Source: Pirellulales bacterium (lineage in GTDB: Bacteria > Planctomycetota > Planctomycetia > Pirellulales > Thermoguttaceae). Taken from it: 48,716 bases of DNA. The stretch spans positions 1 to 48,716 of the forward strand of contig JAFGFF010000063.1 of the NCBI GenBank assembly GCA_016931075.1, given 5' to 3'. The notes beneath the pieces were generated by a model, which was not told where the DNA came from, searched no databases, and was given only the letters and a program-made list of their open reading frames with translations. Made by a program: the position numbers and the translations under genes. Positions 22,640 to 45,056 of this stretch are shown here, one piece after another (position 1 is the first letter of the stretch; each line of letters begins with the position of its first letter).

Positions 22640-23815
22640 ATGACTCGAATAATGATGGCAATTCTGTTAGCCTGTTCGTGTCTGCCCGGTGTCTTGAAGG
22701 CGGCGGACGACGTGGGGCCGCGACCGCGAGTTCATGTTCAGCGATCGGGGACGTTCCTCCGAATGGATTTCGTGTCGGCCCAAGACGGGCGAGGCAATAG
22801 CCTGCGATCGGTCGGTTCGGTGGAGAACCCGCGGTTCGAGGTCTTCAAGGACGAGCAGCGGATCGGCGGCGGCCGGTTCGCTTATGGATGAGGCGGAACG
22901 TGCGGGTGCTCGTGGCGAGTGCCCACCTCGGTCGGCGACGGACCGTTGACGGTCGTGGCCGTTCAGGACCTCGGCGCCAGGCGAATACTGCGCAGCCGGC
23001 CGGTCGACGTGCCCTGGCGGTGGTACGACGGGATGCCGGGCGTGCTCGTCTGGATTGCTCTGCTGGGCCTGGGCTTCGGACTGCGCGACAACCGCCGCGA
23101 TCGGGCGTGGCTGTTTGTGCTCGTGCCGCTTGGGCTGACTCTTTTCTGGCTTGGGGCGACGCCGGCCCTGATCGGGCCGTTCGACGGTGGCCGGGCGCTG
23201 CTCCTCTGGCTCGACGGGATCGCCTTCATGTCGATCTCCATGTCGCTCCTGGGCACGGCCGTGTTGCTGAGCCGGTCTTGGTTGTTCACGGAAGGTCGAT
23301 TCGACCCGAGGCGTTTGCTCCTTGTCCTTTTCGTTGCCGTTATGTTGTTGGCGCAAAGCGGTTACATTGGATTGAGTCGTTCGGAAACGAGCACCGGCCC
23401 GTCACCCGCGGCGTGGGGGGCTGCCGCCATATTACTGGCTGTGGCAACGTGGCTAATCGCCTACCGGTTCAGCCAGGCTACCAGTGAGCAAAAACGTCTG
23501 CTCGGTTGGCCGGCTGTTCAACTTCTCCTTGTCTCGGTGGTGTGCGTTGTTCTGTTTGTCACGTTGCCCCAGTTCCGCGTGCAGTGGCAAGACGCAAACA
23601 ATGCCGGTGACACGATCGGTCTTCTGCTGAGGACCGTCTCGGGCGTAGTGCTGTTGCCGCTGGCGCTGTGCATCGTGAATCTGCCCTTCACGTGGTTCTG
23701 TCTGACGGTCCTGGGACTGGCGGGCGGTTGGGGGTCTTCGTTGGCCCCCGACGAGAGTGAACCTCTTGAGGTTGGCTGGTCGAACACCCCGCGGGAACCC
23801 CCGTTTTCTGGGTGA
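22640..23815 (+). CDS. Candidate membrane selenoprotein, in-frame UGA at codon 84
   Basis: Read through the TGA at 22889-22891, the frame encodes 391 residues: a signal peptide (about 1-21), a short extracytoplasmic domain ending FAYG-Sec-GGTCGCSWRVP, and about seven or eight membrane segments from residue 130 on. A conventional caller would report an 83-residue fragment and a separate protein starting at the GTG at 22919. Both halves are in the same frame. The residues around the TGA match those around the in-frame TGA of three secreted paralogues at 27252-33218, and a SECIS-like hairpin follows at 22904-22924. AAAGGA lies 7 bases before the ATG. Sec84 with Cys88 and Cys90 suggests a redox site outside the membrane. 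Function unknown. Confidence 0.85.
22904..22924 (+). promoter_or_regulatory. Putative bacterial SECIS hairpin (membrane selenoprotein)
   Basis: Nine-pair RNA stem, GGGTGCTCG with CGAGTGCCC, and a TGG loop (22913-22915). Two of the pairs are G-U wobbles. The loop begins 21 bases after the TGA, the same spacing and loop as in the other three genes. Bacterial SECIS elements lie in the coding region just downstream of UGA and are bound by SelB. Confidence 0.8.
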
Positions 23816-23873: not shown

Positions 23874-23935
23874 GAGTGAATCGTTTGTCGAGGGGACTGA
23901 ACGGAGAAGGGCTCGGGGCATCAAAGGGCCGTCGC

Positions 23936-25561
23936 GTGATCGACTTGGAGAAGCGAAAGCGGGTGATGGCCCGATCGATGCGGCTGGGACACTGCATCTG
24001 TGATCCCAAAAAGCCGTGCCCCTGCGACGTCTTCCGGCAACACGACCTCTGCCCTTGCGCAGGCGAGAAGCCCGAGATCGTGGCCAACGGCCCGGTACGT
24101 CTGACACAGATGGTCCACCGCCCGGGCTGTGCGTCGAAGATCGACGCGGCCGTGTTGCGCAAGCTCCTCGTCGGGCTACCCGAGATCAACGATCCGCGGG
24201 TGCTGATCGGGATGCCGGCCGGCGACGACGCGGGCGTGTATCAACTCGACGACAACGTCACACTCGTTCAGACGGTCGACGTATTTTCTCCGTCGGTTGA
24301 CGATCCCTATATGTTCGGCCAGGTCGCGGCGGCCAACTCGGTCAGCGACGTCTACGCGATGGGCGGACGACCGCTGACGGCCCTGTCGATCGTCGGGTTC
24401 CCGATCTACACGGCCCCTGATGAGGTGCTGCAAGAGATCCTCCGCGGCGGGATCGACAAGATGAACGAGGCCGGCGTGGCTGTGATCGGCGGACACAGCA
24501 TCAACGACAACGAGATCAAAGCCGGCTTTGCCGTCACGGGTGTTATCCATCGCGATCAAATGGTATCCAACGCCGGGCTGCAACCGGGCGACCGGCTGAT
24601 CCTGACCAAACCGTTGGGCACGGGCGTGCTGGCCTTCGCGGCCCAGATCGATCGGGCGCCAGAAGAGGCGTTGCTGGCGGCGGCCGAGTCGATGACCAGG
24701 CTGAATCGCACGGCAGCCGAACTGATGGTCGAGTTCAAAGCCCACGCCTGCACCGACGTGACAGGCTTCGGCCTGATGGGCCACCTGGCGTCGATGGCCG
24801 CGGCGAGCAAGGCCGACGTCGAAATCGTTTGGGACGACCTGCCCGTGTTGCCCGGCGTGCTGGAATGCTTGGCCGAGGGCATCGCGGCCGGCGCGGTCGA
24901 GCGGAACCGCGAGGCCTCGGGCCACGCCCTGCGTGCCGAAGAGGGCGTCAGCATGGCGATGCTCGACCTGTGCTTCGATCCGCAGACGTCCGGTGGCCTG
25001 TTGATCGCCGTGCCCGAGGCGGTCGCCGACAAACTGCTCGACCGATTGCACGAACAAGGCGTCACGGAAGCGGTTGCAATCGGCACGGTTCGCGGCCCGG
25101 GCGAAGGCCAGATATTCATCCGCACGACCGGCGCCCGCCCGTTGCCCGAACGAAAACGACAATCGCCGCCGCCCGCCACCCCCACCCCCGTGACCGCCGC
25201 ACCAGCCGCGGACGACGAGTTCCGCTGTTGTCCTGAAGGGCTGCCCGAGGTCGCCGATTCAGCCCCGGCCGAAAGCCTACCAGCCGGACTGAACGTCCGG
25301 GTGTCGGAAGCCGAAGCCCGATTCCAGGCGTTCATGCAAGCGGCCAACGCACCTGGCGCCTTGGACGCCCGGACGAAACAGGCGATGGCCATCGCTCTGT
25401 CCGTGGTAACGAAGTGCGAACCGTGCCTGAAGAGCCACATTAAAAAGGCCCGGGCGATGGGTTTCTCGCAGGAAGAGATCGACGAGGCCGCCTGGATGGG
25501 GATCTCCTTCGGCGGGGCTCCCCTGATGATGTTCTACAAACCGCTGCGAAGAACCGAATAA
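23936..25561 (+). CDS. selD: Selenophosphate synthetase SelD fused to an AhpD-like domain
   Basis: About 541 residues in three parts. (1) A Cys-rich leader, CICDPKKPCPC...LCPC (about 20-41), possibly metal binding. (2) A full SelD, which makes selenophosphate from selenide and ATP. LTQMVHRPGCASKI carries the catalytic cysteine (about 65) and the lysine three residues on; the second cysteine of the usual GCGCK is serine. GDDAGVYQLDD, TVDVFSPSVDDPY and DVTGFGLMGHL follow. (3) After a Pro/Ala linker from about 405, an AhpD/carboxymuconolactone-decarboxylase-like domain with KCEPCLKSH (CxxC about 494-497). Start: the GTG at 23936 has AAAGGG 7 bases upstream; the ATG at 23966 and the GTG at 23876 are alternatives. 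The tRNA-Sec gene begins 24 bases after the stop. Confidence 0.93.
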   Translation: MIDLEKRKRVMARSMRLGHCICDPKKPCPCDVFRQHDLCPCAGEKPEIVANGPVRLTQMVHRPGCASKIDAAVLRKLLVGLPEINDPRVLIGMPAGDDAGVYQLDDNVTLVQTVDVFSPSVDDPYMFGQVAAANSVSDVYAMGGRPLTALSIVGFPIYTAPDEVLQEILRGGIDKMNEAGVAVIGGHSINDNEIKAGFAVTGVIHRDQMVSNAGLQPGDRLILTKPLGTGVLAFAAQIDRAPEEALLAAAESMTRLNRTAAELMVEFKAHACTDVTGFGLMGHLASMAAASKADVEIVWDDLPVLPGVLECLAEGIAAGAVERNREASGHALRAEEGVSMAMLDLCFDPQTSGGLLIAVPEAVADKLLDRLHEQGVTEAVAIGTVRGPGEGQIFIRTTGARPLPERKRQSPPPATPTPVTAAPAADDEFRCCPEGLPEVADSAPAESLPAGLNVRVSEAEARFQAFMQAANAPGALDARTKQAMAIALSVVTKCEPCLKSHIKKARAMGFSQEEIDEAAWMGISFGGAPLMMFYKPLRRTE

Positions 25562-25585: not shown

Positions 25586-25681
25586 GGAGGCGACTGGTGC
25601 CTGGTGGTGCCCCTGGTCTTCAAAACCAGTGTTGGGCCTGCAAGGGTCCTGGGTGGGTTCGATTCCCATTCGCCTCCGCCA
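25586..25681 (+). tRNA. selC: tRNA-Sec (selenocysteine), anticodon TCA
   Basis: The gene is 96 bases long with CCA encoded. Acceptor arms GGAGGCGA (25586-25593) and TCGCCTCC (25670-25677) form the 8-pair stem typical of bacterial tRNA-Sec. The discriminator base is G (25678). The anticodon stem CTGGT/ACCAG encloses CTTCAAA, with TCA at 25620-25622, which reads UGA. A long variable arm follows (GTTGGGCCTGC...), then the T arm with GGTTCGATTCC. The layout matches E. coli selC closely. It lies just after selD and is probably made from the same transcript. Confidence 0.97.
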
Positions 25682-25711: not shown

Positions 25712-26167
25712 ATGTGGCGGATTCTGCGACGAGGACTGATGCCCGTGGCCCTGTTGGGCGTCGGGATCGCTTCGTTGGTCTACGGGGTCGCTTACCACAC
25801 GGTAGTGGTTTGGGAGGAGCACGAGGAGGAGATCACGATCGGGCCGCCGCCGGGATTTTTTGAGGGTCCGGGGGCGCCGGGCGGTTTTGACGATCCTGAA
25901 GGAACGGGAGAACCGGGGGACGGATTCGGCGGGCCCGAGGATGGCTTTGGCCCACCCCCGCCTGGACCGTGGGGACCGCCAGGAGGAGCCGGAGCCTTCG
26001 GCGCGCCGCCCCAAAAACAAACCGTCACCCAGGTCATCTCGGTCAAGAAGATCGACACCGAAATGACGGTACTGCGCGACACGACGATCGGCGGGGTGGC
26101 GATGCTGGAGACGGGTGAATTGATGCGGACCTACACGGGCACGCCTCCGTCACTGTGCCCTACGTGA
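25712..26167 (+). CDS. Small Gly/Pro-rich exported protein, unknown function
   Basis: A 151-residue protein with an N-terminal membrane segment (LMPVALLGVGIASLVYGVAY). An acidic patch (EEHEEEITI) follows, then a long Gly/Pro/Asp/Glu-rich region, and a compact C-terminal part (VTQVISVKKIDTEMTVLRDT). I do not recognise a family. GAGGA lies about 8 bases before the ATG. It ends 18 bases before the polyferredoxin gene, so the two are probably one unit. It could be a small partner or anchor of that iron-sulphur protein. Confidence 0.7.
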   Translation: MWRILRRGLMPVALLGVGIASLVYGVAYHTVVVWEEHEEEITIGPPPGFFEGPGAPGGFDDPEGTGEPGDGFGGPEDGFGPPPPGPWGPPGGAGAFGAPPQKQTVTQVISVKKIDTEMTVLRDTTIGGVAMLETGELMRTYTGTPPSLCPT

Positions 26168-26185
26168 GTGAAGTGACCGGAGGTC

Positions 26186-27100
26186 ATGGTGGCCATGGCC
26201 AAGAAAAAACCCAAACGCTTCCTGCTCCGACTGGCCGGCCGACGTATGTGGGTCCAGGCCGCGTTTCTCCTGGCGTGGCTTGATCCGCTGATGCTGCGAA
26301 TGCACGGGATCTGCTCGCCCGTGTTCCACTGCCATTCGTGTCCCGCGGCGACGTTCGCCTGCCCGATCGGCGTGTTGGCCAACTTCGGCGCGATCCACGT
26401 CTTCCCCTTCCTGGCGCTGGGCGTGCTGGCGGCGACAGGGGCCCTGCTGGGGGCGTTCGTTTGCGGGTGGCTCTGCCCGTTCGGTTTCCTGCAAGACCTG
26501 ATCGGCAAGATCCCGGTCCGCAAGTTCACGTTGCCCGCATGGGTGGGCTACTTCCGATACGTCGTCCTCATCGGTCTGGTGTTGGCCGTGCCCTATTGGT
26601 TCGGCAAGGAGAACAATCCATATTACTTCTGTAGCCTCTGTCCGGCCGGCGCGTTGGAAGGAGCCATGCCCGAGATTGCCAAGAAGGCTATAGCCGGCGA
26701 GGCGTACGAATGGCCCAGCGAGTTGAAGCTCTCGATCGTGGGCGTGTTGCTCGTGTCGATGCTGTTCGTCTGGCGGCCCTGGTGCACGCTGTTTTGCCCG
26801 TTGGGCGCGTTCTACAGCCTGTGCAATGCGTTTTCATTCTTTTATGTCCGAGTGGACCAGAATAAATGCACCCAGTGCAACGTGTGCAAGTCGCAGTGCG
26901 GGTTCGGCGCGGGGCCCGTCCAACGGGCAAGCGACCTGCGGTGCATCGGTTGCCTCGATTGCACAACCTGCAAAGCGGTGGGCGTGTCAAGCGTGTTCGA
27001 ACGATCGTCGAACGGCTCGGGAGGCTCAACCGACCCAGCGCCGCAATTGGTCGCGCTTAGTCCACCAAAATCGTCCACCTCGGAATCCGAGGGAGATTGA
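26186..27100 (+). CDS. NapH/MauN-like membrane polyferredoxin
   Basis: About 304 residues. Four or so membrane segments are interspersed with cysteine motifs: CHSCPAATFACPIG, CGWLCPFG, CSLCPAG and CTLFCPLG. A C-terminal ferredoxin-like part has CTQCNVCKSQC and CIGCLDCTTCK, enough for two 4Fe-4S clusters. This is the layout of NapH/NosR/MauN/RdxA-type proteins that pass electrons from quinol to periplasmic redox partners. The Shine-Dalgarno GGAGG (26179-26183) is too close to the ATG at 26186, so the GTG at 26189 or the ATG at 26195 may be the true start. It sits between selC and the tandem selenoproteins, so it could supply their reductant; that is inference from position only. Confidence 0.85.
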   Translation: MVAMAKKKPKRFLLRLAGRRMWVQAAFLLAWLDPLMLRMHGICSPVFHCHSCPAATFACPIGVLANFGAIHVFPFLALGVLAATGALLGAFVCGWLCPFGFLQDLIGKIPVRKFTLPAWVGYFRYVVLIGLVLAVPYWFGKENNPYYFCSLCPAGALEGAMPEIAKKAIAGEAYEWPSELKLSIVGVLLVSMLFVWRPWCTLFCPLGAFYSLCNAFSFFYVRVDQNKCTQCNVCKSQCGFGAGPVQRASDLRCIGCLDCTTCKAVGVSSVFERSSNGSGGSTDPAPQLVALSPPKSSTSESEGD

Positions 27101-27251: not shown

Positions 27252-29114
27252 ATGAGGAAGAAGAGGTCATGGCATCTGGCCGGCGTGTTGGCCGTCGTGG
27301 CGCTAGTCGCGCTGGCGGCGGACGTCGGCGGGGCCACCTGCAAGCTTGAATTGAAAAAGCCGGGCGACGTCAAGCCGGTGTTGGTCAACGGGGAGTACGT
27401 GCAGCCGATCGAGTCGCTGTTCGGATCCACCCAGTCCCAACGGTTTTCCATTCGAGTTGGCGGCCCGCAGGGCGCTCGAGCCCGCGCCGCTCAGCAGGGA
27501 ATCCCCGAGTTCTCCGAAGTCATCACGAAGGAGCTGGACAAGTACCAGTCCGAAAAACCCTTGCGGGGCGTCGTTAAGCTAGGAACGGAGTACTATGGCT
27601 TCGTCCTGGACACCGAACCCCCGAAGCCCAAGCCCGAGAAAAAAGAGGCCGAAGCCAAAGACGAAAAGAAGGAGGAAAAGAAGGCCGAGAAAAAGTCCGG
27701 CTCCGTTGCGAAGCGTTCCATAGCGTCGTCCGGCCGACGTGTCGTTCTAATGGACGGAGGTCTCGTCTTTCTCAACGGGGACGAGGGCGAGCAGACCGAG
27801 GTTCCGCCCTACACACGGCTTTACCTCGACCTGAATCACAACGGCGATCTGACCGACGACAAGGTGATCGAGGCGGACACGTCGGCCGACAGCCGGCGGC
27901 GCGTCTATCGGTCGTATGCCTACTACACGTTCCCGGTCATGACGGTTCCGATCGAAGTGGACGGGGCGAAGGCCGACTACATGTTCCGGATGAGCGTCAG
28001 CGTGAACGCTCGAGGCGAGCAGATCTACGCCAATGGCTCGGTCCAAGCGGCCGGTTACCGTGAAGGCCAGATCACACTCGACGGCCAGGAATACCGCGTC
28101 GTCGCGATCGACTTCAATGGCAACGGCCGGTTCGACGACACGACCTCGATGCGGACCGCCGGCAGCCCGACCAGACGATACATCCGTCCGGACTTGGGCG
28201 ATCTCCTGTTTCTGGTCAAACCCGACAGCCGGGTGAGCTACGGCAGCGTCTATTCGCCGTCGACCCAGCAGACGGAACACCTGGTCGGTAAGCATCTGAA
28301 CGTCAAGGGCCGCCTCTACGAGATGAAGCTCTCGCCGGTGGGCGATGAATTGACCCTCGTGCCCGTCGAAGGAGCACGGGGATTCGTCACCAACCCGAAC
28401 GAGGGCTATCAGGCCGTCGTGTACAACGATGAGATGGGACCTTTGAAGATCTCCGGTGATGCCTCGGGCAAAGCCGAACTGCCGCCCGGCGACTGGAAGC
28501 TCTACTCCTACACGATCGACCGGACCACGCCGCCGAAGGCTGAAGAGAAAGCCGAAGCGGACACCGCGTCGGAGAAGACCGATGAAGCCAAGTCGGAGGA
28601 GAAGAAAGCGAAGAAGGTCATCCGGCCGCGCCGGGCCCGACCGACGGACACCATGGTCTACGCCCGGGCGATGCCCGAGTACAACGCGGTGACCGTCGCC
28701 GAAGGCGAAACGGTCGAGATGCCCTTCGGCCCTCCCTTCCAGCCGATCGTCACGGCTTCGTATAACAAGAAGAACAATCGCGCCTCGCTTGGGATGAAGC
28801 TGGTCGGCGCGGGCGGCGAGTCGTGCTCCGGCCTGGTCCTCAAAGGCAACCGGCCCGACAAGCCGACGTTCACCGTCACCACGCCCGACGGCACGGAGGT
28901 GGCCAAGGGCAATTTCGAGTATGGATGAGGCTTCACCTGCCGGTACTCGTGGCGAGTACCAGAAGACCTGGCGGACCAGTACATCATCGTCGTGAAGCTG
29001 GACGCCGGACCCTTCAAGGTTGAATCCGATCACCGCAACGTCATCAATACGACCGGTTGGAAACCGAAGGAGACGTCCGAAGAAGAAAAAGAGCCTTCTG
29101 ACGAGAAGGAATAG
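27252..29114 (+). CDS. Candidate secreted selenoprotein 1, UGA at codon 559
   Basis: Reading through the TGA at 28926-28928 gives 620 residues ending at TAG 29112-29114. Signal peptide about 1-28. The body has two EF-hand-like acidic loops, DLNHNGDLTDD (193-203) and DFNGNGRFDD (287-296), and two Lys/Glu-rich linkers (about 124-150 and 430-455). A C-terminal beta-rich module ends FEYG-Sec-GFTCRYSWRVP. A conserved cysteine (525) lies 34 residues before the Sec in all three paralogues, and Cys563 lies four after it. GGAGGG precedes the ATG at 27252 by 8 bases. The extension past the TGA is conserved in paralogues 2 and 3. Family unknown; a calcium-dependent extracytoplasmic redox role is a guess. 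Confidence 0.87.
28942..28960 (+). promoter_or_regulatory. Putative SECIS hairpin, selenoprotein 1
   Basis: Perfect 8-pair stem GGTACTCG/CGAGTACC with a TGG loop at 28950-28952, 21 bases after the TGA. It is identical to the hairpin of paralogue 3. Confidence 0.82.
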
Positions 29115-29123
29115 TCAACCCGC

Positions 29124-29162
29124 CCGGGAGGTCGAGCCCGCCTCGACCTCCCGGTTTCTTTT
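29124..29162 (+). terminator. Rho-independent terminator of selenoprotein gene 1
   Basis: Perfect 13-base stem (CCGGGAGGTCGAG at 29124-29136 with 29142-29154) followed by TTTCTTTT. It lies 9 bases after the TAG that ends the read-through frame, rather than after the internal TGA, which supports the longer reading. Confidence 0.88.
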
Positions 29163-29206
29163 GAGGAAAGAGAATCGCTAAAGCATTTTTCATGAACCTG
29201 TAGCGT

Positions 29207-29268
29207 GGTGGCACTGGCGTCTCGCCAGTGCTGGGACCAGAAGACACTGGCGAGACGCCAGTGCCACC
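29207..29268. repeat. GGTGGCAC palindromic repeat between selenoprotein genes 1 and 2
   Basis: Perfect 24-base inverted arms (29207-29230, 29245-29268) with a 14-base spacer. The arms match 12583-12644 and the right half of 7809-7868. Confidence 0.9.
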
Positions 29269-29347
29269 CATCGGGCCCGCTACGTATTCGTGGGAAGCAC
29301 TTTATAGGTTCTGTCTCGAAGCAACCTGTTTATCGGAGGGCCTGCTT

Positions 29348-31192
29348 ATGAAGAGGTGGTTGCACCGTCTGGCTGGTGTGATCGTGGCCGCGGGAATGCT
29401 TGCGCTCGCGGCCGGCGCCAGGGCGGAAACCTGCAAGCTGGAGTTGAAGAAGATGGGCGAGCCGAACAGCCGACGATCCGCTGGAGTGCTTTACTCCATG
29501 CTCAGTTCGGCGGACGCCCAGTCGTTCTACATGCAGACCGGAGCCGACGGTCGTCTTGTTCATCGGGACGACGGCCCCAAGAAGCCCGCGTTTTCCAAGG
29601 TCATCACCAAAGAGCCCGAGAAGTACGTCTCGAAACATCCGTTTCGCGGCGTGGCCAAGCTGGGTTCCCAGTACTACGGCTTTGTCATCGACGCCTCGCC
29701 GCCCAGAAAGAAAGAGGGCGACAAGGCCAAGAAGAACAAGCCGGAGGACGAGGACGAGAAGGCCGAAGCCAAGGAAGACCAGGGCGACGGCAAGAAGAAG
29801 GACAACGAGTCGGGGTCGCTGGCTAAGACCATCGCCAAGGCGGTGACTGAAAAGAAAAAGGAAGAGGATACTCCGCTTGCCTACACCCGAGTTTTCTTCG
29901 ACCTGAACCACAACGGCGATCTAACCGACGACAAGGTGATCGAAGTCGAAGGCAATCAGGGTTATGCGATGTCTCCGGGCTTCCACCACGTTTCATTCCC
30001 GGCAACGGATATCACCCTGACCGTTGACGGCAAGAAGATCGAGTATGCCTTCTCGATGTACGTCTACGGGCAGTCGAGCAAGACGTATTCCTATCTCAAC
30101 GCGGGGCTCCAGGCCGCCGTCTATCGAGAAGGGAAAATGACCTTCGGCGGCAAGGAATACCGTGTCGTTGTGTCTGACTACAACAGCAACGGCCAATTCG
30201 ACGACGCCTCGGTCGTCACGGACGTGGACCCCTCGTCGACCGAGGCGATCTATCCCACGACGGGCGACATGGTCTTCCTGGTTGAATCGGGTTCCAAGCC
30301 CAAACGGGTCAGTCCGTATTCCATCACGGATAACGACTGCATGCACTTCGTCGGCAAGATGATCCAGGTCAATGGGCAATTCCACAACCTGAAGGTTACG
30401 CCCAGCGGCAACGAACTGACGATCGACGACGAAGCCCTGCCGACCGGGACCATTTCCAATACGAACCCCAATTTTCAAGCCGTCTTTCGCGGGCCGGGTG
30501 GATTTTTGAAAACGTCCGGCGATGCCTCTGGCAAGGTGCCCCTGCCGGCCGGCGAGTGGACCCTCCTCTCCTACACCATCCGCCGGGAAGATGATCCCGA
30601 CAAGAAAAAGACGGAGGAAGAGGAGAAAGCCAAGCAAGAGGCGCAAGGCAAAGAGGGCAAAGACAAGGTCGCCCAGAAAGAAAGCTCGTCGTTTTTGGGT
30701 GCGTTGCGTAAAGCATTGAGCGCCCCGCCCCGGCCTTCCCGGTCGCCGCGGATGCCCCGGTCTAAGTATTCGTCGGTCACTGCCCGCGCGTCGGGCAAGA
30801 CGAAACCGGTCAAGGTGGTCGCCGGCGAGACGGTCGAGATGCCCTTCGGCGGACCGTACAGACCGATCGTCTCGGTCCAGTATCGTTCGGACAACCGGCA
30901 CGTCTCGCTGGGACTCGCCCTGGTCGGCACGGCCGAGGAAGTCTGTTCCGACATGGAGGTCTTCGGCAACCGGCCCGAGGAACCGGCCTTCACCATCACC
31001 ACGCCCGACGGCAAGAAAGTGGCCACCGGCGCGTTCGAGTATGGGTGAGGCTTCACCTGTTCGTACTCGTGGCGAGTACCCAAGGAACCGGCCGATGTCT
31101 ACCACGTCAAAGTCGTCATGAAAGACGGCCCCTTCAAGTTCGACCTGGATTACGTCAGCACGATCACCAAAGAAGACCTGGCTGGCAATTAG
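29348..31192 (+). CDS. Candidate secreted selenoprotein 2, UGA at codon 567
   Basis: Reading through the TGA at 31046-31048 gives 614 residues ending at TAG 31190-31192. Layout as in paralogue 1: signal peptide about 1-26, acidic loops DLNHNGDLTDD (185-195) and DYNSNGQFDD (277-286), and Lys/Glu-rich linkers near 120-175 and 415-445. The block GETVEMPFGGPYRPIV is followed by the C-terminal module with Cys533 and FEYG-Sec-GFTCSYSWRVP. GGAGGGCCTGCTT precedes the ATG at 29348, almost the same leader as in paralogue 3. The sequence differs widely from its neighbours in the linkers but not around the Sec codon. A true stop at the TGA is unlikely, because the next 48 codons are conserved among the copies. 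Function unknown. Confidence 0.87.
31063..31079 (+). promoter_or_regulatory. Putative SECIS hairpin, selenoprotein 2
   Basis: Seven-pair stem GTACTCG/CGAGTAC with a TGG loop at 31070-31072, 21 bases after the TGA. The base below the stem differs from the other copies (C opposite C), which shortens it by one pair. Confidence 0.78.
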
Positions 31193-31219
31193 TCTCCTTT
31201 CAACCTGAGAGATTCCCTC

Positions 31220-31260
31220 GCCGGGAGACCGACCCCGAGTGGGCCTCCCGGCTTTTCTTT
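31220..31260 (+). terminator. Rho-independent terminator of selenoprotein gene 2
   Basis: GCCGGGAG (31220-31227) pairs with CTCCCGGC (31245-31252), followed by TTTTCTTTTATATTT. It is related to the terminators of paralogues 1 and 3 and follows the distal TAG, not the internal TGA. Confidence 0.82.
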
Positions 31261-31282
31261 TATATTTCGTGGATTTTGTGTG

Positions 31283-31299
31283 TTTCGTGGTTCCCCTCT
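31283..31299. repeat. Short dispersed repeat, copy 2
   Basis: TTTCGTGGTTCCCCTCT, identical to 8142-8158, again beside T-rich DNA with TTTCGTGG-like units. Confidence 0.6.
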
Positions 31300-31326
31300 T
31301 CGCCCTCCCGGCTGGGGGGCTTTGCC

Positions 31327-31355
31327 TCGACAGGCGTCCAAATCCGCCGTACAAT
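31327..31355 (+). promoter_or_regulatory. Promoter of selenoprotein gene 3
   Basis: TCGACA (31327-31332), a 17-base spacer and TACAAT (31350-31355), five of six matches in each element. With the terminator at 31220-31260, this makes the third paralogue a separate transcription unit with a leader of about 95 bases. Confidence 0.65.
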
Positions 31356-31457
31356 GCGACCTGATGCACTGACGTGGTCGAACGTTCGACCGGAACCTGT
31401 TTTGTCGGCGCGCGAGTGAACCACGCGCCGGAGGAATCCGTTTTGGAGGGCCTGCTT

Positions 31458-33218
31458 ATGAGAAGATGGTTGCGTCACGGCGTCGGCCTGTGCGCGGTCG
31501 CGGGACTGCTTGTCCTGGCAACCCATGCCGGCGCGGCAACCTCCGAACTGACGATGAAAAGGACGGACCAGGTGAAGCCTGGCGACGGTAATCGCGCGTC
31601 CGTGGTGCGCAACGTCGTTCGCTATGCGCGAAGCCAGTCCTTTTTCCAACAGATCGGAGGAAAAGGCAGGGTGCACGGCCCCGAACCGCCGGCCGGAACG
31701 CCCGAGTTTTCGAAAGTCATCGAGAAGGAGCCGGCCAAGTACAATTCGGAACATCCGTTCCGAGGCGTGGCCAAGCTCGGCTCCCAGTACTTCGGTTTCG
31801 TCTTCGACACCGATCCGCCCAAGAAACCCAAGGAAGAAAAGAAGGCGGACGAGGATAAAACCAAAGACGACGAGAAAAAGGACGCGAAAGAGAAAAAGGG
31901 ATTCGCCGCCGCGTTGGCCAAAGCGATTACGGCCGAGGCCCGTAAGAAGGAAAATCCCGACGTGGCCACCTACTCGCGGCTCTATTTCGACCTGAACCAC
32001 AACGGCGACCTGACCGACGACAAGGTCATCGAGGCCGAAAAGCCCCGGATCCACGACTTCGGCGACAGCTACTACTACAACGCTTCATTCCCCGTCACGA
32101 ACGTCACGATCGACGTCGATGGAACGAAGGTCGAGTACGCTTTCTCCATGCGGGCAGGCGGGCAGATCGGGAAGAAGATGTCCTCCATGTCCTATGTCAA
32201 CGCGTCACTCTCCGCCGCCGCGTTCCGCGAGGGGAAAATCACGTTCGACGGAAAAGACTACGTCGTCGCCCTGGTCGACTTCAACAGCAACGGCCGTTTC
32301 GACGACGCAACGGAGATTCCCAAGGGAGTCCGTGGGCCGAGAGGCAGCGTTTATCCGACCCCGGGCGATATGCTCTACCTGATCGACGCCGAGGGCAAGC
32401 TGAAGAGCATGAGTCCCTACGACCCGACGCAGAACGACTACGCCCATTTCGTCGGGAAGCTCGTCCGGGTCGGCGACGGATTCCACGGCCTGAAGATCTC
32501 GCCCGCCGGCGACGAACTGACGATCGACTCCGAAACCGTCCCGGTCGGCTTCGTCTCCAATCCGAACGGCGACTATCAGGCGATCGTCTACGGGCCTGGC
32601 GGGTTGCTCAAGGCGGTTGGCGACGACTCGGGCAAGGCCCCCTTGCCCGCTGGAGAGTGGAAGCTTATGGCCTACACCATCCGGCATGTCGAACAGCCGA
32701 AGGAAGAGCCGGAAGCCAAAGACGAGGAAAAGAAGGACGATTCTTCAAAGGAAAACGCGAAACCGGCGAAGAAACGCCCCGTCCGGCCTCGCGTGTCGAT
32801 CGTGAGCGCTCGAGCCATGGGTGACTACGAGCCGGTCAAGGTGGTCGAAGGCGAAACGATCGAGTTGCCCTTTGGCGGACCGTACAAACCGGTCGTCGAT
32901 GTCCAGTATCGTTCCGGTCAGAATTCCGTCTCGCTTGGTCTGACGCTGACAGGCATCGTCGGCGAGTCCTGCAGCGACATGGAAATCAACGGCCGCCAGC
33001 CCGCCGAACCGACGTTCATCATTACCACGGCCGACGGCAAGGAGGTGGCCACCGGCAAGTTCGAGTATGGGTGAGGCTTCACCTGCCGGTACTCGTGGCG
33101 AGTACCCGAAGAACTAGCCGACGTCTATCACGTTAAAGTCAAGATGGACGGCGGGCCCTTCAAGATCGATACCGATCACGTCAGCATCATCCAGAAAGAA
33201 AAATTGTCCCAGAGGTAG
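31458..33218 (+). CDS. Candidate secreted selenoprotein 3, UGA at codon 539
   Basis: Reading through the TGA at 33072-33074 gives 586 residues ending at TAG 33216-33218. Signal peptide about 1-26 (MRRWLRHGVGLCAVAGLLVL). Acidic loops DLNHNGDLTDD (178-188) and DFNSNGRFDD (274-283). Lys/Glu/Asp-rich linkers near 120-148 and 413-440. C-terminal module with Cys505 and FEYG-Sec-GFTCRYSWRVP, then about 37 residues with a conserved GPFK motif. It lacks the N-terminal Thr-Cys-Lys of copies 1 and 2, so that cysteine is not essential. GGAGGGCCTGCTT precedes the ATG at 31458. It has its own promoter (31327-31355) and terminator. Function unknown. Confidence 0.87.
33088..33106 (+). promoter_or_regulatory. 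Putative SECIS hairpin, selenoprotein 3
   Basis: Perfect 8-pair stem GGTACTCG/CGAGTACC with a TGG loop at 33096-33098, 21 bases after the TGA. From the TGA through the hairpin it is base-for-base identical to paralogue 1, including synonymous positions. Confidence 0.82.
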
Positions 33219-33244
33219 CTTCGCGGCACTTCATGACAGTCTTA

Positions 33245-33285
33245 CCGGGAGGTCGGCGCCGTGCCGGCCTCCCGGTTTTGTTTCT
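33245..33285 (+). terminator. Rho-independent terminator of selenoprotein gene 3
   Basis: CCGGGAGGTCGGC (33245-33257) pairs with GCCGGCCTCCCGG (33263-33275) with one G-U, followed by TTTTGTTTCTT. It follows the distal TAG at 33218. Confidence 0.88.
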
Positions 33286-38181: not shown

Positions 38182-41100
38182 CTACAGCGACACATTCTCG
38201 GCGGCCGCTTCTTGCCGGAGTTGTTTGCGGTACTTGAGCATCTCGGTCCCGCTCATGATGCGAACCGTCCAATAGAACCGCCCGAGATTCATCCCCTCCA
38301 AGCGGGCGCGTATCTCCTTGAGCACGGGCAGTTGGCTCTCGTCGTCGAGCCGGGCGATCGCCCGATAGACCATGATGTCGAGCACCTCGGTGTCCAGGAC
38401 CATCTCCTCTTCATGGTCGTGCCAATAGCGCAACAAGGGAGAGAGCCCGGCCGGTTCCTTCATCACGGCCATCAGATAACCGGCCATCGCGGCCGTCCGC
38501 TTGTCGGAGTCCTTCAACAAAGGCCGGACGTCTTCCGGTTTCAGGCCGGGCGGCGCCTCGGGCACGATCGGCCCTCCAGGGCTGGAGTAGGTATTCTTGC
38601 CGAGAAAGTCGTCATACTCCTCGAAGTCGACGTTCAGGTGGTCCATGGAGTACACAAACGATTCGGTCCCGACGGCCAGATACTGCAGCGCGACTTTCCG
38701 ACGCTCGGCCGACTTGCCCTTGAGCGCGGCGACGGCCGTCTTGATGCGGTCTTGCTTCGGTTGCGCGGCCAGGAGCACGCGAAACGCGTGGTCCTGGGCC
38801 TCCTTGTCTTCTTTCGGATCGTGAAGCATGGCCTCGGCCGCCTTGGCCGCCTCGTCGCGCGATCCCTTCAGAAGGATCGAAAGGGCCACCATCCGTTGCC
38901 AACGGCTCTTTGACACGAGATGCGGTCGGGCTTCCTCGACCATGGCCTTGCGCTTCTCCGGCGGAGCGTCGGAAGGTGAATAGTGTGCCTGGCCAAGGTA
39001 GCTCTGCGCCAGCCCGTATTGGGCCATCATCACCGTGTGGAGATCCATCTTCTCGTCGGCCAGAATCTCCCAAAACAGGTCGCCGGCCTGAGCGTCCTCC
39101 AGTTCGGAGAGCGTCATGGCCAGACGCTGCCGTCCGTCCGTGTTGGCGTGTTTCCAGAGCCGTCGGAAGGCGTCGCCTCGCTCGGGCCAGGGCAGCCACT
39201 GCAGAACGCCGACCGCCTGCGCCGGCACGGCCGGGTCGGACTCGGCCGCGTCGAGAATCAACGGCAGGGCCTTTTCCGACTTGCCCAACGCCACCAACGC
39301 CAACGCGGCTGCCACGCGCTCCTCGGCCTCCTTTGCGGAGAGCATCTTCTCGAGCGGCTCGACCGTCTTCGTCATCCAATCCGGGCGGCCCTCGCCCGCG
39401 AGGAACTTGACCAGCCGTTCCTTTTTCGAGAGCTTCGCCAAGGCCGGGGCCACCGTTGCCGGCGCGGTCGAGGGAGGCGCCATGCCCGGCAGGGATGGCG
39501 GCGACACAAAAACCGTCCCACCCATCCCACCCGTCACCGCCGCTTCGCCTGATGGACCGGCCGGATACACGATGGCCGGCGGCGTGACCGGGGGAACCCC
39601 CGTGGCTGGAACGGCTACGGGCGGCGTCGTTGGCGGCGTGGTTGGCGGTATGGTCGGCGGAGCGTAGGGATCCCAAGCCGGAGGAGGCGGTGATACGGCT
39701 GGCGCCGTACCGCCCGGAAGCATGGGCGCGCCCGGCCCGGGGGCATTCGGCACGGGCACCAAACGCGTGGGCACCGGCCTTCCTGGCATGACCGGCACGG
39801 CCCCGGGACCAGGGACTGGTTCCACGGGAACGAACGTCCCGCGTCCATCCGGAGCCGTCACGACGATGCCCAGAGGACGCAGCATATCCGGAGGGGCCGG
39901 CTGCGGCGGAAGAACAGGCACCGTGCTGTTCGGAGCAACCGGAACCGGCGTCATCGTGCCCGGTGCGGGCATGACGGTCGGGCGATAACGCGGCGTGCTT
40001 GGCGCGGAGGTCTTATGCTCCGCACCTTCCTTCGTTTTCGATGTCGGCGTCGAGGACCGGAACGGATCGTACTTTTCCCAGTCCCGGTCGGGTCGAACCG
40101 GCGTCGCCGCCGCCCCCTTGGTTGTTGCCCTGTATGGTTCAGACACGCCCGAAGGCACGGGGAGCATTGAATCCGAATACGGCGCCGGATCGACAGGAAC
40201 ATACGGCGGCGCGGCAACCGGTTTGGACACCGGGCCCTTCGTGGCCGGCTGTTTGGTTGGAACGTTGATCGGCCAAGGCATCATTCCCGACTGGACCAGT
40301 GTGTCCGGGGCCGGGGGTTGAACCGGCTGGGCGCCCGGCCTGGCGGGCTGCCACTTTGGCGCTTCCATCGGGACCAGCGGCGCGTCCGGTTGAGTGTTGA
40401 ACTTGAGATCGACGCGCATTTCCAAACGACCGTCTTTGTTTTTCACCTCTTTCCATGTGCCCGGCTTCCAGTCGAAATCACCCTCAATCTTCAAGACACC
40501 GCCTTCGACCGCTTTCGCATCGCCCTTATCTTTTTTCTTTGTCGGGTCCATGCCCATGGCTTCGGCTGCCTTGCCAAACCAGGTTTTTTTCTTCGACTCC
40601 TGGACGGGCTTGGGGGCGGGTGGAAGCGGCGGCGCGTCATGCACGAATGCAGGCTGCGGCACGTCCACCCATACCTTCCTCCCGTTCACTTCGTATTCCA
40701 CCCGTGCGGTCGGACGCGACTTCTTCAATCCCAATGCCTCCAGAGCTGACCCAAGCCACGACTGCTCCTCGGGCGGCTCCGGCTCGATCCACTCAACCGT
40801 ATCGCCTTGAACCAAAACGTTTAAGCCGTGAGGCGAGACGGTTATATTGGCGTTCTCGGCCGCCTCGTCGATCGCCTTCTTCTGCTTCTCCAGCAACCGG
40901 ACGAGCGTCCCCGCGGCGGCCACGCGGACCGCGCTGTCCTTGTCCGACAGGGCCGACAGGACGACCTTTTCCATCTTGTCCGGCGTGGTCCGAGAAAGCC
41001 CTTCGACGGCCGCCGCCCGGATCTCGGGCGTTTCGTGCTGGGCGAACTCCATCAAGTGGGGCAGGGCCTTGTCACGCAGCGTGTCGTTGCCGGTAAGCAT

Positions 41101-43395
41101 CCCGACGATCGACACGGCCAGGGTCGGATGCTTTTTGGCAGCGGCGACCAGCGGCTCGACGGCGGCCTCGTTGCTCGTGCGGGACAGCCCTTCGATGGCC
41201 TTGCTGACCACGAATGCGTCCGGGTCGCCAAGCAGCTTGATCAGGGCGTCTTGGATCTGCTTCTGAAACGGCTTGGTCTTTTCCTCCTGACGAACCGTCC
41301 GGCCGTTGAACGAGACGTAGCTATAGCTGTGGCTTCGATCCAGGTGAGCGGCGATGCCGACGGCGGCTTCGGCCCGGACCTGCCAGCTTTCATGATCCAG
41401 CAGCCCGAGCATGGCCCTAGCGGCCTCCTCGCAGCTTGCCGCGCGGAGGAACCGGATGGCGTGGACCAACAGGTCGGGGTCCTTCTCGGTCTTGAGATAC
41501 TCGGCCACGGCGGGGACCATGGTCTGCTGCGGCTTCTCTTCAAGCTGTTTCAGGACGGCCGCCCGAACGTTCGGCTCCGGGTCGGCCAACAGCTTGACCA
41601 GCGCGGCGGTCGCCTGGGGGCCACCGATGTTTTGCAGGCCGCGGAGGCTGATCTCGCGGACCAGCGGATCGGAATCGCTGAACAGCTCCAGCAACAGGGC
41701 CTGGTCGGCGGCTCCGGCCATCTTGGACAATTGCTCGGCCGCCTGTTGACGCCCTCGCGAATCGGCCGAGGCAAGCTGCACAATCCCGCCGGGCCAACGT
41801 AGCGCCAGGGCGTCGCTCGTGACCAGCCGGTAACGCAACGCCATCAACCGGCCACGGTCCTGGTCCGAGGCGGCGTCCTTGAGCCGGGCATAGACCTCGG
41901 GCATCAGCGCCGGGCCCCAGCCGGCCAACCGCTCGCGGATGGCGGCCGCTTCGGCGTCGTCGACCGAGAGCATCCGGGCGATTTGCTTGCCCAGCTCGAC
42001 CTGCTGGGCCTCGGTGAGCTTCTCGGGCCGGGTCGGCGCCGTGTCGGGCGGGTTCTTCGCCCAATCGGCCAACGCGGCCAGGCGTTCCTTGGTCAGCGTC
42101 TTCGGTTGCCACGGGTCGACACCCTCCAGCGGAGCGTTCCACTCGTCCAACAATTCGAGCGCCGCCAACCGCGTGGACAGGTCGCCCTTGCGGAAGGCGT
42201 CGACCACCGTCGGGCCGCTCGACTTCGGATGGGGCAACAGCCGGCGGACGGCCGCCTCGCGAATCACCGGGCTGCGGTCGGTGAACTGCCCCACCAGGGT
42301 CATCGTGTCGTCCGCGCTCGGCGGGCCGGAGCGCATCAGGACGTCCGCCGGCGCGGCCGAAGCTTCGGCCTGATGCTCGGCCAGCCACTTGACCAGGTCC
42401 TCGGCCGAAAGGTAGCCCACCTTCTCGGCGATCTTGACGCCCTGGGCGTTCTGGATCTGCCATGTGGGCACGGCCTGAACGCCCAGCCGGGTGGCGTCTT
42501 CCGACGACCCGTTTGTCACGTCGATATAAACTCGCGTCCAGCCGCCCAGCGCTTGCTGGACCTCGGGCTTTTCGATTTCCTTGGCCACCCGTTTGCACAC
42601 CGCGCACCACTCGGCCCCCACGCGAATCAGGATCGGCGTCTGATGGGTCAAGGCCTGACGGTGGCCCTTGGCCAGGTTGTCGACCCATTCGGTCGGCACC
42701 TCGCCGGGCGGCGTCGGCTTGCCCGTCGAGCCCGGCTGCAAGCCGCTGCCGAGATCGAGAGTAACCGAGCCGAACGGGGAAGACGGCGGGGGCGTTACCT
42801 CCGGAGGAGGTGAGTCCATCTGAACAAGCGGCACTGTGCTCGACTCCGGCTCGACCGATTCGAGCAACGCCCGGATCAGGGCGGCCGTCGCGCGTCGTCC
42901 GCTAGGTTTTTTTGAAGGAGAGGCGTCCGCGTCGGGCGCGGACGGCGGCTCGGGTTGCTTTTCTGCGACGAGAACGGCCGTCTGGAGTTCTTTCAAAACC
43001 CCAATGGCCTTGTCTGGCGGGCCTTTCTCCATCGCGTCCAGAAGCCTTGCCGTTTCTTCCGGCGTCAGCGTTCTCTTGGAGTCCTTCTCGTCGCCGCTCT
43101 TTTTATTTGTGCTGTTCTTCTCCTCTCTCGTGGCGGCTTTCTCTTGTACAGCCTTCTTGAGCTCGGCCACCCTCTTCTTCTCGTAATTTGCGACATAAGC
43201 CTTGCTGGAGGCTAACTCCTTCTCTCGTGCCTCGATATAGGCCTTTTCGGCAGCCTTTTCCTCTTCGATATCCTTCTTCTCCGCCGAGGACTGTGGAGGC
43301 GGGTCCTTAATCGCCAGACCGAGTGACGGGCACAGCCCGAGCAGGACAATCGCGGTCAAGACGATCGTCGTTCGAGGATATTGAAGGGCCTTCAT
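38182..43395 (-). CDS. Giant exported HEAT-repeat protein with thioredoxin domain
   Basis: A 1737-residue protein. Signal peptide about 1-28 (TTIVLTAIVLLGLCPSLGLA), then a Lys/Glu-rich coiled coil (about 35-105). A thioredoxin-like domain lies at about 235-342, with catalytic GAEWCAVCKR (cysteines 264 and 267) and the cis-proline loop AVPTW; it resembles the DsbD C-terminal/thioredoxin_7 group. A long HEAT-repeat array runs from about 360 to 900, then a Pro-rich region (about 990-1330) and a further HEAT-like part to the C-terminus. The array should be a binding scaffold, with the thioredoxin domain reducing or isomerising periplasmic disulfides. The ATG at 43395 overlaps the stop of the cytochrome gene (ATGA). 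An upstream in-frame extension to 43536 lies inside that gene and is rejected. Confidence 0.85.
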   Translation of the reverse strand: MKALQYPRTTIVLTAIVLLGLCPSLGLAIKDPPPQSSAEKKDIEEEKAAEKAYIEAREKELASSKAYVANYEKKRVAELKKAVQEKAATREEKNSTNKKSGDEKDSKRTLTPEETARLLDAMEKGPPDKAIGVLKELQTAVLVAEKQPEPPSAPDADASPSKKPSGRRATAALIRALLESVEPESSTVPLVQMDSPPPEVTPPPSSPFGSVTLDLGSGLQPGSTGKPTPPGEVPTEWVDNLAKGHRQALTHQTPILIRVGAEWCAVCKRVAKEIEKPEVQQALGGWTRVYIDVTNGSSEDATRLGVQAVPTWQIQNAQGVKIAEKVGYLSAEDLVKWLAEHQAEASAAPADVLMRSGPPSADDTMTLVGQFTDRSPVIREAAVRRLLPHPKSSGPTVVDAFRKGDLSTRLAALELLDEWNAPLEGVDPWQPKTLTKERLAALADWAKNPPDTAPTRPEKLTEAQQVELGKQIARMLSVDDAEAAAIRERLAGWGPALMPEVYARLKDAASDQDRGRLMALRYRLVTSDALALRWPGGIVQLASADSRGRQQAAEQLSKMAGAADQALLLELFSDSDPLVREISLRGLQNIGGPQATAALVKLLADPEPNVRAAVLKQLEEKPQQTMVPAVAEYLKTEKDPDLLVHAIRFLRAASCEEAARAMLGLLDHESWQVRAEAAVGIAAHLDRSHSYSYVSFNGRTVRQEEKTKPFQKQIQDALIKLLGDPDAFVVSKAIEGLSRTSNEAAVEPLVAAAKKHPTLAVSIVGMLTGNDTLRDKALPHLMEFAQHETPEIRAAAVEGLSRTTPDKMEKVVLSALSDKDSAVRVAAAGTLVRLLEKQKKAIDEAAENANITVSPHGLNVLVQGDTVEWIEPEPPEEQSWLGSALEALGLKKSRPTARVEYEVNGRKVWVDVPQPAFVHDAPPLPPAPKPVQESKKKTWFGKAAEAMGMDPTKKKDKGDAKAVEGGVLKIEGDFDWKPGTWKEVKNKDGRLEMRVDLKFNTQPDAPLVPMEAPKWQPARPGAQPVQPPAPDTLVQSGMMPWPINVPTKQPATKGPVSKPVAAPPYVPVDPAPYSDSMLPVPSGVSEPYRATTKGAAATPVRPDRDWEKYDPFRSSTPTSKTKEGAEHKTSAPSTPRYRPTVMPAPGTMTPVPVAPNSTVPVLPPQPAPPDMLRPLGIVVTAPDGRGTFVPVEPVPGPGAVPVMPGRPVPTRLVPVPNAPGPGAPMLPGGTAPAVSPPPPAWDPYAPPTIPPTTPPTTPPVAVPATGVPPVTPPAIVYPAGPSGEAAVTGGMGGTVFVSPPSLPGMAPPSTAPATVAPALAKLSKKERLVKFLAGEGRPDWMTKTVEPLEKMLSAKEAEERVAAALALVALGKSEKALPLILDAAESDPAVPAQAVGVLQWLPWPERGDAFRRLWKHANTDGRQRLAMTLSELEDAQAGDLFWEILADEKMDLHTVMMAQYGLAQSYLGQAHYSPSDAPPEKRKAMVEEARPHLVSKSRWQRMVALSILLKGSRDEAAKAAEAMLHDPKEDKEAQDHAFRVLLAAQPKQDRIKTAVAALKGKSAERRKVALQYLAVGTESFVYSMDHLNVDFEEYDDFLGKNTYSSPGGPIVPEAPPGLKPEDVRPLLKDSDKRTAAMAGYLMAVMKEPAGLSPLLRYWHDHEEEMVLDTEVLDIMVYRAIARLDDESQLPVLKEIRARLEGMNLGRFYWTVRIMSGTEMLKYRKQLRQEAAAENVSL

Positions 43396-45056
43396 GGGTT
43401 CTTCCCCTTGTCTGTTTCGGACATCTTCGTTTTCGGTTCCGTCCCTTCGGCCGCCGGCACGCCGTGCTGGATCTGCGGCCAATAGGTCGAGTAGTCGAAA
43501 CGTGGACTGTTTTCCTGGTCGTGACAGACCGTGCACCGGTCAGTCGCGCCGGCGCCGTAGGTCGTCTTGTAGGTCTCGGGCTTCTTCACGTGGGCCAGCG
43601 AGGGGCCGTGGCAGTCTTCGCAGCCGACATTGGTCAGTTTGGGGCTCCGCGTCACCGAGCGGAATCCGCCGGGCAGCCCGTAGCCGACCGTGTGGCACCG
43701 CTGACAGGCCGGGTCGACGTGAGCCCCTTTCTTCTCCAGCGACTGCCAGGCGTGCGCGTGACGCGACTTGCGCCAGACGGCCGCTTCCTCCTCGTGGCAC
43801 TCAAAGCAGGACGTCGTGCCGGCCACGCGGTAGTCGTCAGGCAGCCCGGTGGGCAATGCCTTGACCAGCGACGTCTCTTCCGGCGTCAGGTCCCGGCGGC
43901 CAAGTTCCTCATAGAACTGTTTGACGTTTTCCACCTGGCAGGAATCGTCGGCGAAGCTCTCGTCCAATTCGACCACGCTGCCCGACCAGGCGCCGGCCGG
44001 ACCCTTCTCCGGCAAGTCGAGCCGTATAACGAACTTGCCCTCATTCGTGGCCGAGGACAACAGCGTCGGCCCTTGCCGCTTGGGCACGATCGGCTGGCCG
44101 GTCGGGCCGCCCAGGACGACGTCGACCTCGGGCAGCGCCTGGGCCAACTCGCGGAGTTCATCCTCGGGCAGATAGGCCAGGACGATGGCCGTGTCGAATT
44201 TCCCTTTTACCTCTCGAAGCGTCTCCAAAACGGCCTCGCGAGGCGGCCGGACGGTCAGCCCGGGCGCGGCGAAGCGCTGGCTCAACACGCCGATCACCGC
44301 CAGACGCCGGCCTGCCTTCTCGATCAGTCGAACGGCGGGGGCCACCGGCTGGCCTTCCGCGTCCAGCACGTTGGCCGAGATAAACGGCACGCCCGTCTGG
44401 TTGGCCAACTCCATGAGCACGTCCGGCCCGAAGGCCGCTTCGGCCTCGCCGATGTTGTGGGCAGCAATACCCATGGCCTTTTCACCCCGGAGGATGGCCT
44501 CGAACTTGATCCGGTCGTAGACCGACGTGCCGGCCGGCGCGCCGCCCACCTCGACCACGACGACCTGGGCCTCGCCTCGCAGCCGCTCGACAAGGGTGGC
44601 TCGCCGGGGCAGCCCGCCCGACTGGTTCGACGTGCATCCACACGGCACGATCCGCCCGCCCGTGTCGCCGCTGGCCAATACGACCAACGGAGCCGGGTCG
44701 TTGCTGGTCCAGCAACCGGTGGCAAAGGTGAGTGTGAGCAGCAAGATGAAAGAGGGGGCGAGGGGCGAGGGGCGGGGGACGGGGGAATCGATGTTTTCCT
44801 GGGGTGCCACTGCTGGCTTGGACAGCAGTGTGGATCGAACGTCTCCCAAGAAGCACTGCTGGACAAGCCGATAGTGGCACTCGGCAAGGAACCAGAGGTG
44901 AGGGACGGGAGGGCACGCTCCGGGTGACACCGGCTCGGCCCACACCGTCATGGTGCGAGTATTCAAGCACGGACGGCACCCGCGGGATGTAGCGCGCAGA
45001 CGCCCCCGTCCCTCGCCCCTGGTCCCTTGTCCCTTTTCTTCTGCCAGCACTCGCAT
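43392..45056 (-). CDS. Phosphoesterase-like lipoprotein with tetraheme cytochrome c domain
   Basis: About 554 residues as read. The N-terminal 100 or so are encoded by repeat DNA and are probably not native. The native part starts at a lipoprotein-like signal (FILLLTLTFATGC). An UshA/calcineurin-like domain follows: ASGDTGGRIVPCGCTSNQSG then GGLPRRATLV, a variant metal site; NIGEAEAAFGPD; LGGPTGQPI. The C-terminal third holds four haem c motifs, CFECH, CQRCH, CEDCH and CTVCH, with extra His residues as distal ligands. It is translationally coupled to the HEAT/thioredoxin protein, whose disulfide chemistry could serve CxxCH maturation. The start at the ATG 45056 is uncertain. Similar phosphoesterase-cytochrome fusions are known in anaerobes, and the role is probably electron transfer. 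Confidence 0.8.
   Translation of the reverse strand: MRVLAEEKGQGTRGEGRGRLRATSRGCRPCLNTRTMTVWAEPVSPGACPPVPHLWFLAECHYRLVQQCFLGDVRSTLLSKPAVAPQENIDSPVPRPSPLAPSFILLLTLTFATGCWTSNDPAPLVVLASGDTGGRIVPCGCTSNQSGGLPRRATLVERLRGEAQVVVVEVGGAPAGTSVYDRIKFEAILRGEKAMGIAAHNIGEAEAAFGPDVLMELANQTGVPFISANVLDAEGQPVAPAVRLIEKAGRRLAVIGVLSQRFAAPGLTVRPPREAVLETLREVKGKFDTAIVLAYLPEDELRELAQALPEVDVVLGGPTGQPIVPKRQGPTLLSSATNEGKFVIRLDLPEKGPAGAWSGSVVELDESFADDSCQVENVKQFYEELGRRDLTPEETSLVKALPTGLPDDYRVAGTTSCFECHEEEAAVWRKSRHAHAWQSLEKKGAHVDPACQRCHTVGYGLPGGFRSVTRSPKLTNVGCEDCHGPSLAHVKKPETYKTTYGAGATDRCTVCHDQENSPRFDYSTYWPQIQHGVPAAEGTEPKTKMSETDKGKNP
44759..45032. repeat. Composite repeat cluster at the 5' end of the cytochrome gene
   Basis: A G-rich run, GAGGGGCGAGGGGCGGGGGA (44759-44785), and its approximate inverse (about 45000-45032) surround an imperfect 27-base inverted repeat, GTGCCACTGCTGGCTTGG (44804-44830) with its partner at 44854-44880. 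Together they fill the space between the DUF4159 stop and the lipoprotein signal and stay open in frame. Confidence 0.7.

Follow-up and report, generated by a model that had tools for sequence, protein, structure and literature searches.

Tandem genes with a predicted selenocysteine module in a Pirellulales bacterium and their relatives across Planctomycetota

Three tandem genes in the window analysed here, a 48,716-nucleotide (nt) stretch of DNA from a Pirellulales bacterium (contig JAFGFF010000063.1), each contain a single in-frame TGA, and the question they raise is whether this codon ends the protein or is read as selenocysteine (Sec, U). The genes occupy positions 27252-29114 (copy 1), 29348-31192 (copy 2) and 31458-33218 (copy 3) on the forward strand, as do all further features of the window unless marked otherwise. 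When the TGA is read as Sec and the distal TAG is taken as the end, they encode proteins of 620, 614 and 586 residues with Sec559, Sec567 and Sec539 (codons at 28926-28928, 31046-31048 and 33072-33074, respectively), and their alignment reveals the common motif FEYG-U-GFTC(R/S)YSWRVP. Re-translation and alignment bear out these coordinates, lengths and the motif as given in a first-pass annotation of the locus, together with its observation that copies 1 and 3 are identical base for base from the TGA through a following hairpin. That annotation had also proposed that the three are genuine selenoproteins, and the conserved coding sequence after the TGA, the pairing of the hairpin and the Sec machinery in the genome lead us to the same view: the three genes are almost certainly genuine selenoprotein genes of a wider Sec-module family.

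Two further claims held in part. Strong terminator-like hairpins follow the distal TAG of copy 1 (29124-29154) and copy 3 (33244-33276), while copy 2 has a weaker one (at 31241). The proteins were called secreted; copies 1-3 appear to be exported, judging solely by their hydrophobic N-terminal segments.

Coding sequence and hairpin after the TGA

The first-pass annotation had staked its reading on conservation after the TGA, and homologues retain it. In 77 homologue pairs, 457, 326 and 882 changes were counted at codon positions 1, 2 and 3 beyond the hairpin, and the ratio of nonsynonymous to synonymous substitution rates (dN/dS) in this region was approximately 0.20, indicative of purifying selection. 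In addition, members of a membrane type carry approximately 270-320 residues with transmembrane helices after the UGA.

The hairpins lie at 28942-28960 in copy 1 (8 bp, UGG loop), 31062-31080 in copy 2 (seven of eight pairs) and 33088-33106 in copy 3, with folding energies of -16.3, -11.7 and -15.8 kcal/mol, respectively. The stem of 8 bp with its UGG loop starts 13 nt 3' of the UGA, and this geometry fits the model of the bacterial selenocysteine insertion sequence (bSECIS) in PMC13188914, the consensus of which has a loop of 3-9 nt, a G in the first two loop positions and a distance from UGA to loop of 16-37 nt. Across 153 distinct sequences, 6.85 of the 8 pairs were of the Watson-Crick type, versus 3.67 of 8 in shuffles in which codons were swapped for synonymous codons of the same gene (p=3.7e-27, a value that overstates the number of independent events because the sequences are not phylogenetically independent). 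The hairpin downstream of the UGA is kept by covariation: compensatory changes yield the pair types TA, CG, GC and AT at three stem positions, and in the HLWQVP members (TGCCGGCACTTGTGGCAAGTGCC) the changes Y-to-H and S-to-L on one arm are matched by a change of the Val codon and by R-to-Q on the other. Moreover, GTA accounts for 73% of the Val codons at the stem site and for 8% of those elsewhere in the same genes. As the TGG codon of the Trp forms the loop, the conservation of SWRVP may be partly an RNA constraint.

Distribution of the module and the codon at its site

The module comprises about 90 residues with the consensus GxFxYG-U-Gx[TSA]C...WxVP, and the same arrangement recurs in more than 160 homologous modules. 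Of 100 related genomes, 18 gave matches to a profile of the three proteins; almost all matches that span the site contain exactly one TGA, and most of those lacking a TGA end before it. Among 392 genomes of the phylum, a profile of the C-terminal module was positive in 22, representing some 20 GTDB families and almost always showing one TGA, and a richer module profile was positive in 28 genomes of this sample. SelB was strongly matched in 17 of the 19 sampled genomes with TGA modules, the other two being 83% and 56% complete. Short, long (GEVED-like) and multi-transmembrane proteins belong to this apparently Sec-obligate module family, and modules of membrane and soluble type often stand in tandem (13 pairs).

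The codon at the site was left open in a DNA scan for [YF]-G-(TGN)-G-x-[TSA]-C-x-x-x-W-x-V-P over approximately 85,000 genomes, one per species, which listed at least 114 stretches. Among the matches listed, 126 have TGA, one of which (L128, Clostridiales) is a chance match, leaving 125 modules, and none has TGC, TGT or TGG in an open frame, hence neither Cys nor Trp. According to record titles, the modules are mostly from Planctomycetota, with others from Verrucomicrobiota, Lentisphaerae, Omnitrophota, Sumerlaeota/BRC1, Hydrogenedentota and Riflebacteria. At least one label of a metagenome-assembled genome is plainly mistaken. The phylum labels of lone contigs from such genomes need care, as one labelled Nealsonbacteria (L079) has the same module sequence as a Planctomycetota genome (L017, G016).

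Homologues with Cys in place of Sec, which the first-pass annotation suggested looking for, are essentially absent among the matches listed. The single convincing case is a divergent QCCGN form of membrane type (L060/L206). It comes from genome G482, which has no SelB above the cut-off: at 2.6e-60, its best match to the SelB profile falls far short of the matches in genomes that decode Sec. Other candidates were rejected: two weak stop-free matches (L059 and L062) are, by eye, macroglobulin-like immunoglobulin (Ig) domains in proteins of 1,600-1,700 residues; the stop-free L216 and the second copy of L217 are paralogues that have lost the U motif; and the only match among viral contigs (L186, TGT) is due to chance, its frame being interrupted by many stops. 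In L217 (G331:C34), the Sec copy is followed by its paralogue with the decayed motif ERSDARGF. Among the plasmids searched, none encodes copy 3.

These data bear on the possibility that the TGA is an ordinary stop, the downstream likeness being left from duplication or the hairpin having another RNA role. TGA is the usual stop in the window, and the genes are tandem paralogues, two of which are identical from the TGA through the hairpin, as such a reading would have it. However, the frame after the TGA is conserved across families and phyla at the low dN/dS given above and runs on for about 300 residues in the membrane-type family; intact modules always have TGA among the matches listed, yet the true stops of the window include TAG and TAA; and the stem occupies the position required of a bSECIS. 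An ordinary stop is thus very improbable. Least probable of all is that UGA is read as another amino acid, such as Trp, through a suppressor or one of the reassigned codes known in some bacterial lineages, since UGA terminates other genes of the window, including an open reading frame (ORF) of 699 residues, so that the code is not reassigned, TGG does not occur at the site among the matches listed, and both the linkage to SelB and tRNA-Sec and the SECIS-type pairing are strong.

The family was described at first pass as unrecognised, and this description stands, whereas its local scope of three copies does not, the Sec module being widespread and present in several architectures. No Pfam family exceeded its cut-off over the module (weak matches were to GEVED in 27 and MG2 in 8 of 81 family members, and SHD1 is an extra domain in 5 of the 81), no NCBIfam model (June 2026) matches it, none of the 119 families in a 2026 catalogue has its motif (PMC13188914), and literature searches, with supplementary tables outside their reach, found no paper describing the motif. 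A fourth long member in the same genome (L006, contig C229) has N-terminal WTSRDGKF-type repeats resembling SHD1, and compensatory changes (Y-to-H and S-to-L) are present in its SECIS stem.

Selenium-related genes of the locus and genome

Absence of selA and selB would have left the reading as Sec without its machinery in the first-pass annotation; both genes are present and adjoin on contig C223 (549.8 and 323.8 bits, respectively). As that annotation reported, selD and selC are located just upstream of the three genes. The SelD ORF (23876-25561, 368 bits to TIGR00476) is fused to a C-terminal AhpD/CMD domain, and tRNA-Sec lies at 25586-25681 (RF01852, 75.8 bits); thus, the genome holds the full set of selA, selB, selD and tRNA-Sec. 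With these components the host would decode the UGA as Sec via the hairpin approximately 13 nt downstream. The AhpD/CMD domain of the SelD fusion contains a CxxC, and the N-terminal extension of the fusion protein is Cys-rich (CICDPKKPCPC). A second SelA-like gene in the same genome (G000:C467:14922-16256) scores 272.5 bits, just above the cut-off.

The window contains five predicted selenoprotein genes rather than the three first reported, and at least two more are found elsewhere in the genome (C229 and C400). One of the two missed genes (22640-23815, Sec codon 22889-22891, bSECIS hairpin 22905-22923) is a membrane-type member of the module family just upstream of selD, encoding a signal segment, a short YGUGGTC module and then transmembrane helices. 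The other (25712-26176, Sec codon 26165-26167) encodes a small membrane protein ending in LCPT-U-VK followed by the stop, hereafter CPTU. Its bSECIS hairpin (26182-26200, 8 bp, UGG loop, minimum free energy -12.0, z -2.1) overlaps the start of the next gene (26186-27100), which encodes a membrane polyferredoxin distantly related to NapH/MauN (Fer4_5). In all 23 CPTU loci with an identifiable end, this window included, the TGA is followed by a stop one or two codons on, and in most loci a hairpin, typically of 8 bp with a UGG loop, lies approximately 14 nt 3' of the TGA over the polyferredoxin start. CPTU is probably a second new selenoprotein, of the C-terminal CxxU type.

In its genomic context, the module is linked to SelD, tRNA-Sec, CPTU and the NapH-like polyferredoxin. 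When loci were retrieved by the module alone, 28 of the 114 had a polyferredoxin homologue and about 18 had SelD, and tRNA-Sec was found in 18 of 60 loci scanned, which were not randomly chosen. At E<1e-40, the polyferredoxin was present in 20 of the 28 module-positive genomes, in none of 28 genomes that have SelB but lack the module and in none of 4 SelB-negative genomes. Among the neighbours of modules, 2-hydroxyglutaryl-CoA dehydratase D (HGD-D) is matched by seven and a BadF-type ATPase by one, and a link to double-cubane reductases is possible. On the reverse strand, the window also contains an ORF of 1784 residues (38182-43536).

Predicted fold, possible function and known systems

An AlphaFold model of copy 3 with 81 homologues (predicted local distance difference test, pLDDT, 89; predicted template modelling score, pTM, 0.85) has an all-beta, Ig/FN3/MG-like region at residues 445-579, with Sec539 placed after strand 529-534 and before strand 543-548 of the C-terminal beta-sandwich. 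Sec is accordingly predicted in the loop YG-U-Gx[TSA]C of an Ig-like beta-sandwich. Foldseek and VIA returned generic Ig/FN3/macroglobulin matches and no specific relative, and among solved structures none contains the module (best E 0.08). The only residues invariant across 81 long members are G-U-G and the Cys at +4, and these do not vary among 38 membrane-type or 19 short members either.

We infer a redox use of the U-x-x-x-C pair. Electrons from the polyferredoxin would cross the membrane and reach the CPTU arm, which would reduce the selenylsulfide of the Ig-like modules, and the reduced modules would in turn reduce a substrate outside the cytoplasm (peroxide, disulfide or metal/metalloid). 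This relay as a whole is a tentative proposal that falls somewhat short of probable. For the broader reading, the case is about evenly balanced: that of a selenium-obligate extracytoplasmic electron-transfer system, formed by the polyferredoxin, CPTU and expanding families of Ig-like UGxTC proteins, in which Sec would not be replaceable by Cys and which is perhaps a main reason for keeping the Sec trait in Planctomycetota and neighbouring phyla.

The chief functional rival accepts the selenoproteins and takes the Sec loop as a carrier site binding metal/metalloid or selenium/sulfur instead of a thiol redox relay, comparable to the Gly-flanked Cys of the Ig-like SoxY. The G-U-G, as the most conserved element of the module, argues for such a site, as do the Ig-like fold, the appearance of SoxYZ as one of many weak matches to the membrane-type model, the frequent position of selD next door and the loss of the second Cys in distant members. 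However, the main families keep the Cys at +4 without exception, and redox is the better fit to a neighbourhood of electron-transfer proteins and a CxxU protein; we regard a carrier site as rather unlikely.

Several observations count against the reading as selenoproteins of a redox system. In the most distant members (L205, L207, L208 and L210-L212) YGUG is kept and the second, resolving Cys is lost; a disulfide-type mechanism through U-x-x-x-C is thus not universal, and Sec-Gly, not the U-C pair, forms the core of the module. No polyferredoxin was detected in 8 of the 28 module genomes. The AlphaFold model was built with Cys replacing Sec, and its fold similarity is generic to Ig/FN3/macroglobulin domains only (Z of about 7-8). 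Finally, the folding energy of the whole region gave no signal against synonymous shuffles, probably because the genes are GC-rich, and only the specific stem exceeded them.

Catalogued bacterial selenoproteins mostly have a thioredoxin fold, and many are homologous to thiol-based oxidoreductases (PMC13188914). The present module family is large and Ig-like, has several paralogues per genome and has no entry in Pfam, NCBIfam or the 2026 catalogue; its almost complete lack of Cys forms would explain why methods seeking Cys homologues missed it, and standard annotation would label its members as truncated proteins. It offers a testable candidate for the role of selenium in many Planctomycetota, and CPTU comes along as a probable second new selenoprotein, with a SECIS that extends over the beginning of the gene after it.

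Compared to known systems, the polyferredoxin shares Fer4_5 with the NapH/MauN ferredoxin-type proteins as a distant relative, but it reaches only 37.4 bits to TIGR02163 (cut-off 213), has its own invariant C39, C42 and C49 and sits among selenoprotein genes. The UGSC-containing protein (NF041046) and the DUF1573 UGC selenoproteins also have Sec followed by Gly with a Cys nearby, although the module does not match their models and differs in motif and context. Like the thioredoxin-fold selenoproteins (UxxC/CxxU), the module has Sec near a Cys and is probably redox-active, whereas its spacing is U-x-x-x-C and its predicted fold an Ig-like beta-sandwich. Unlike FdhF and other bSECIS selenoproteins, it represents a new family with an Ig-like fold and no profile match to catalogued selenoprotein models; like them, it has a UGA followed by a close hairpin within the coding region, in a genome with selA, selB, selD and selC.

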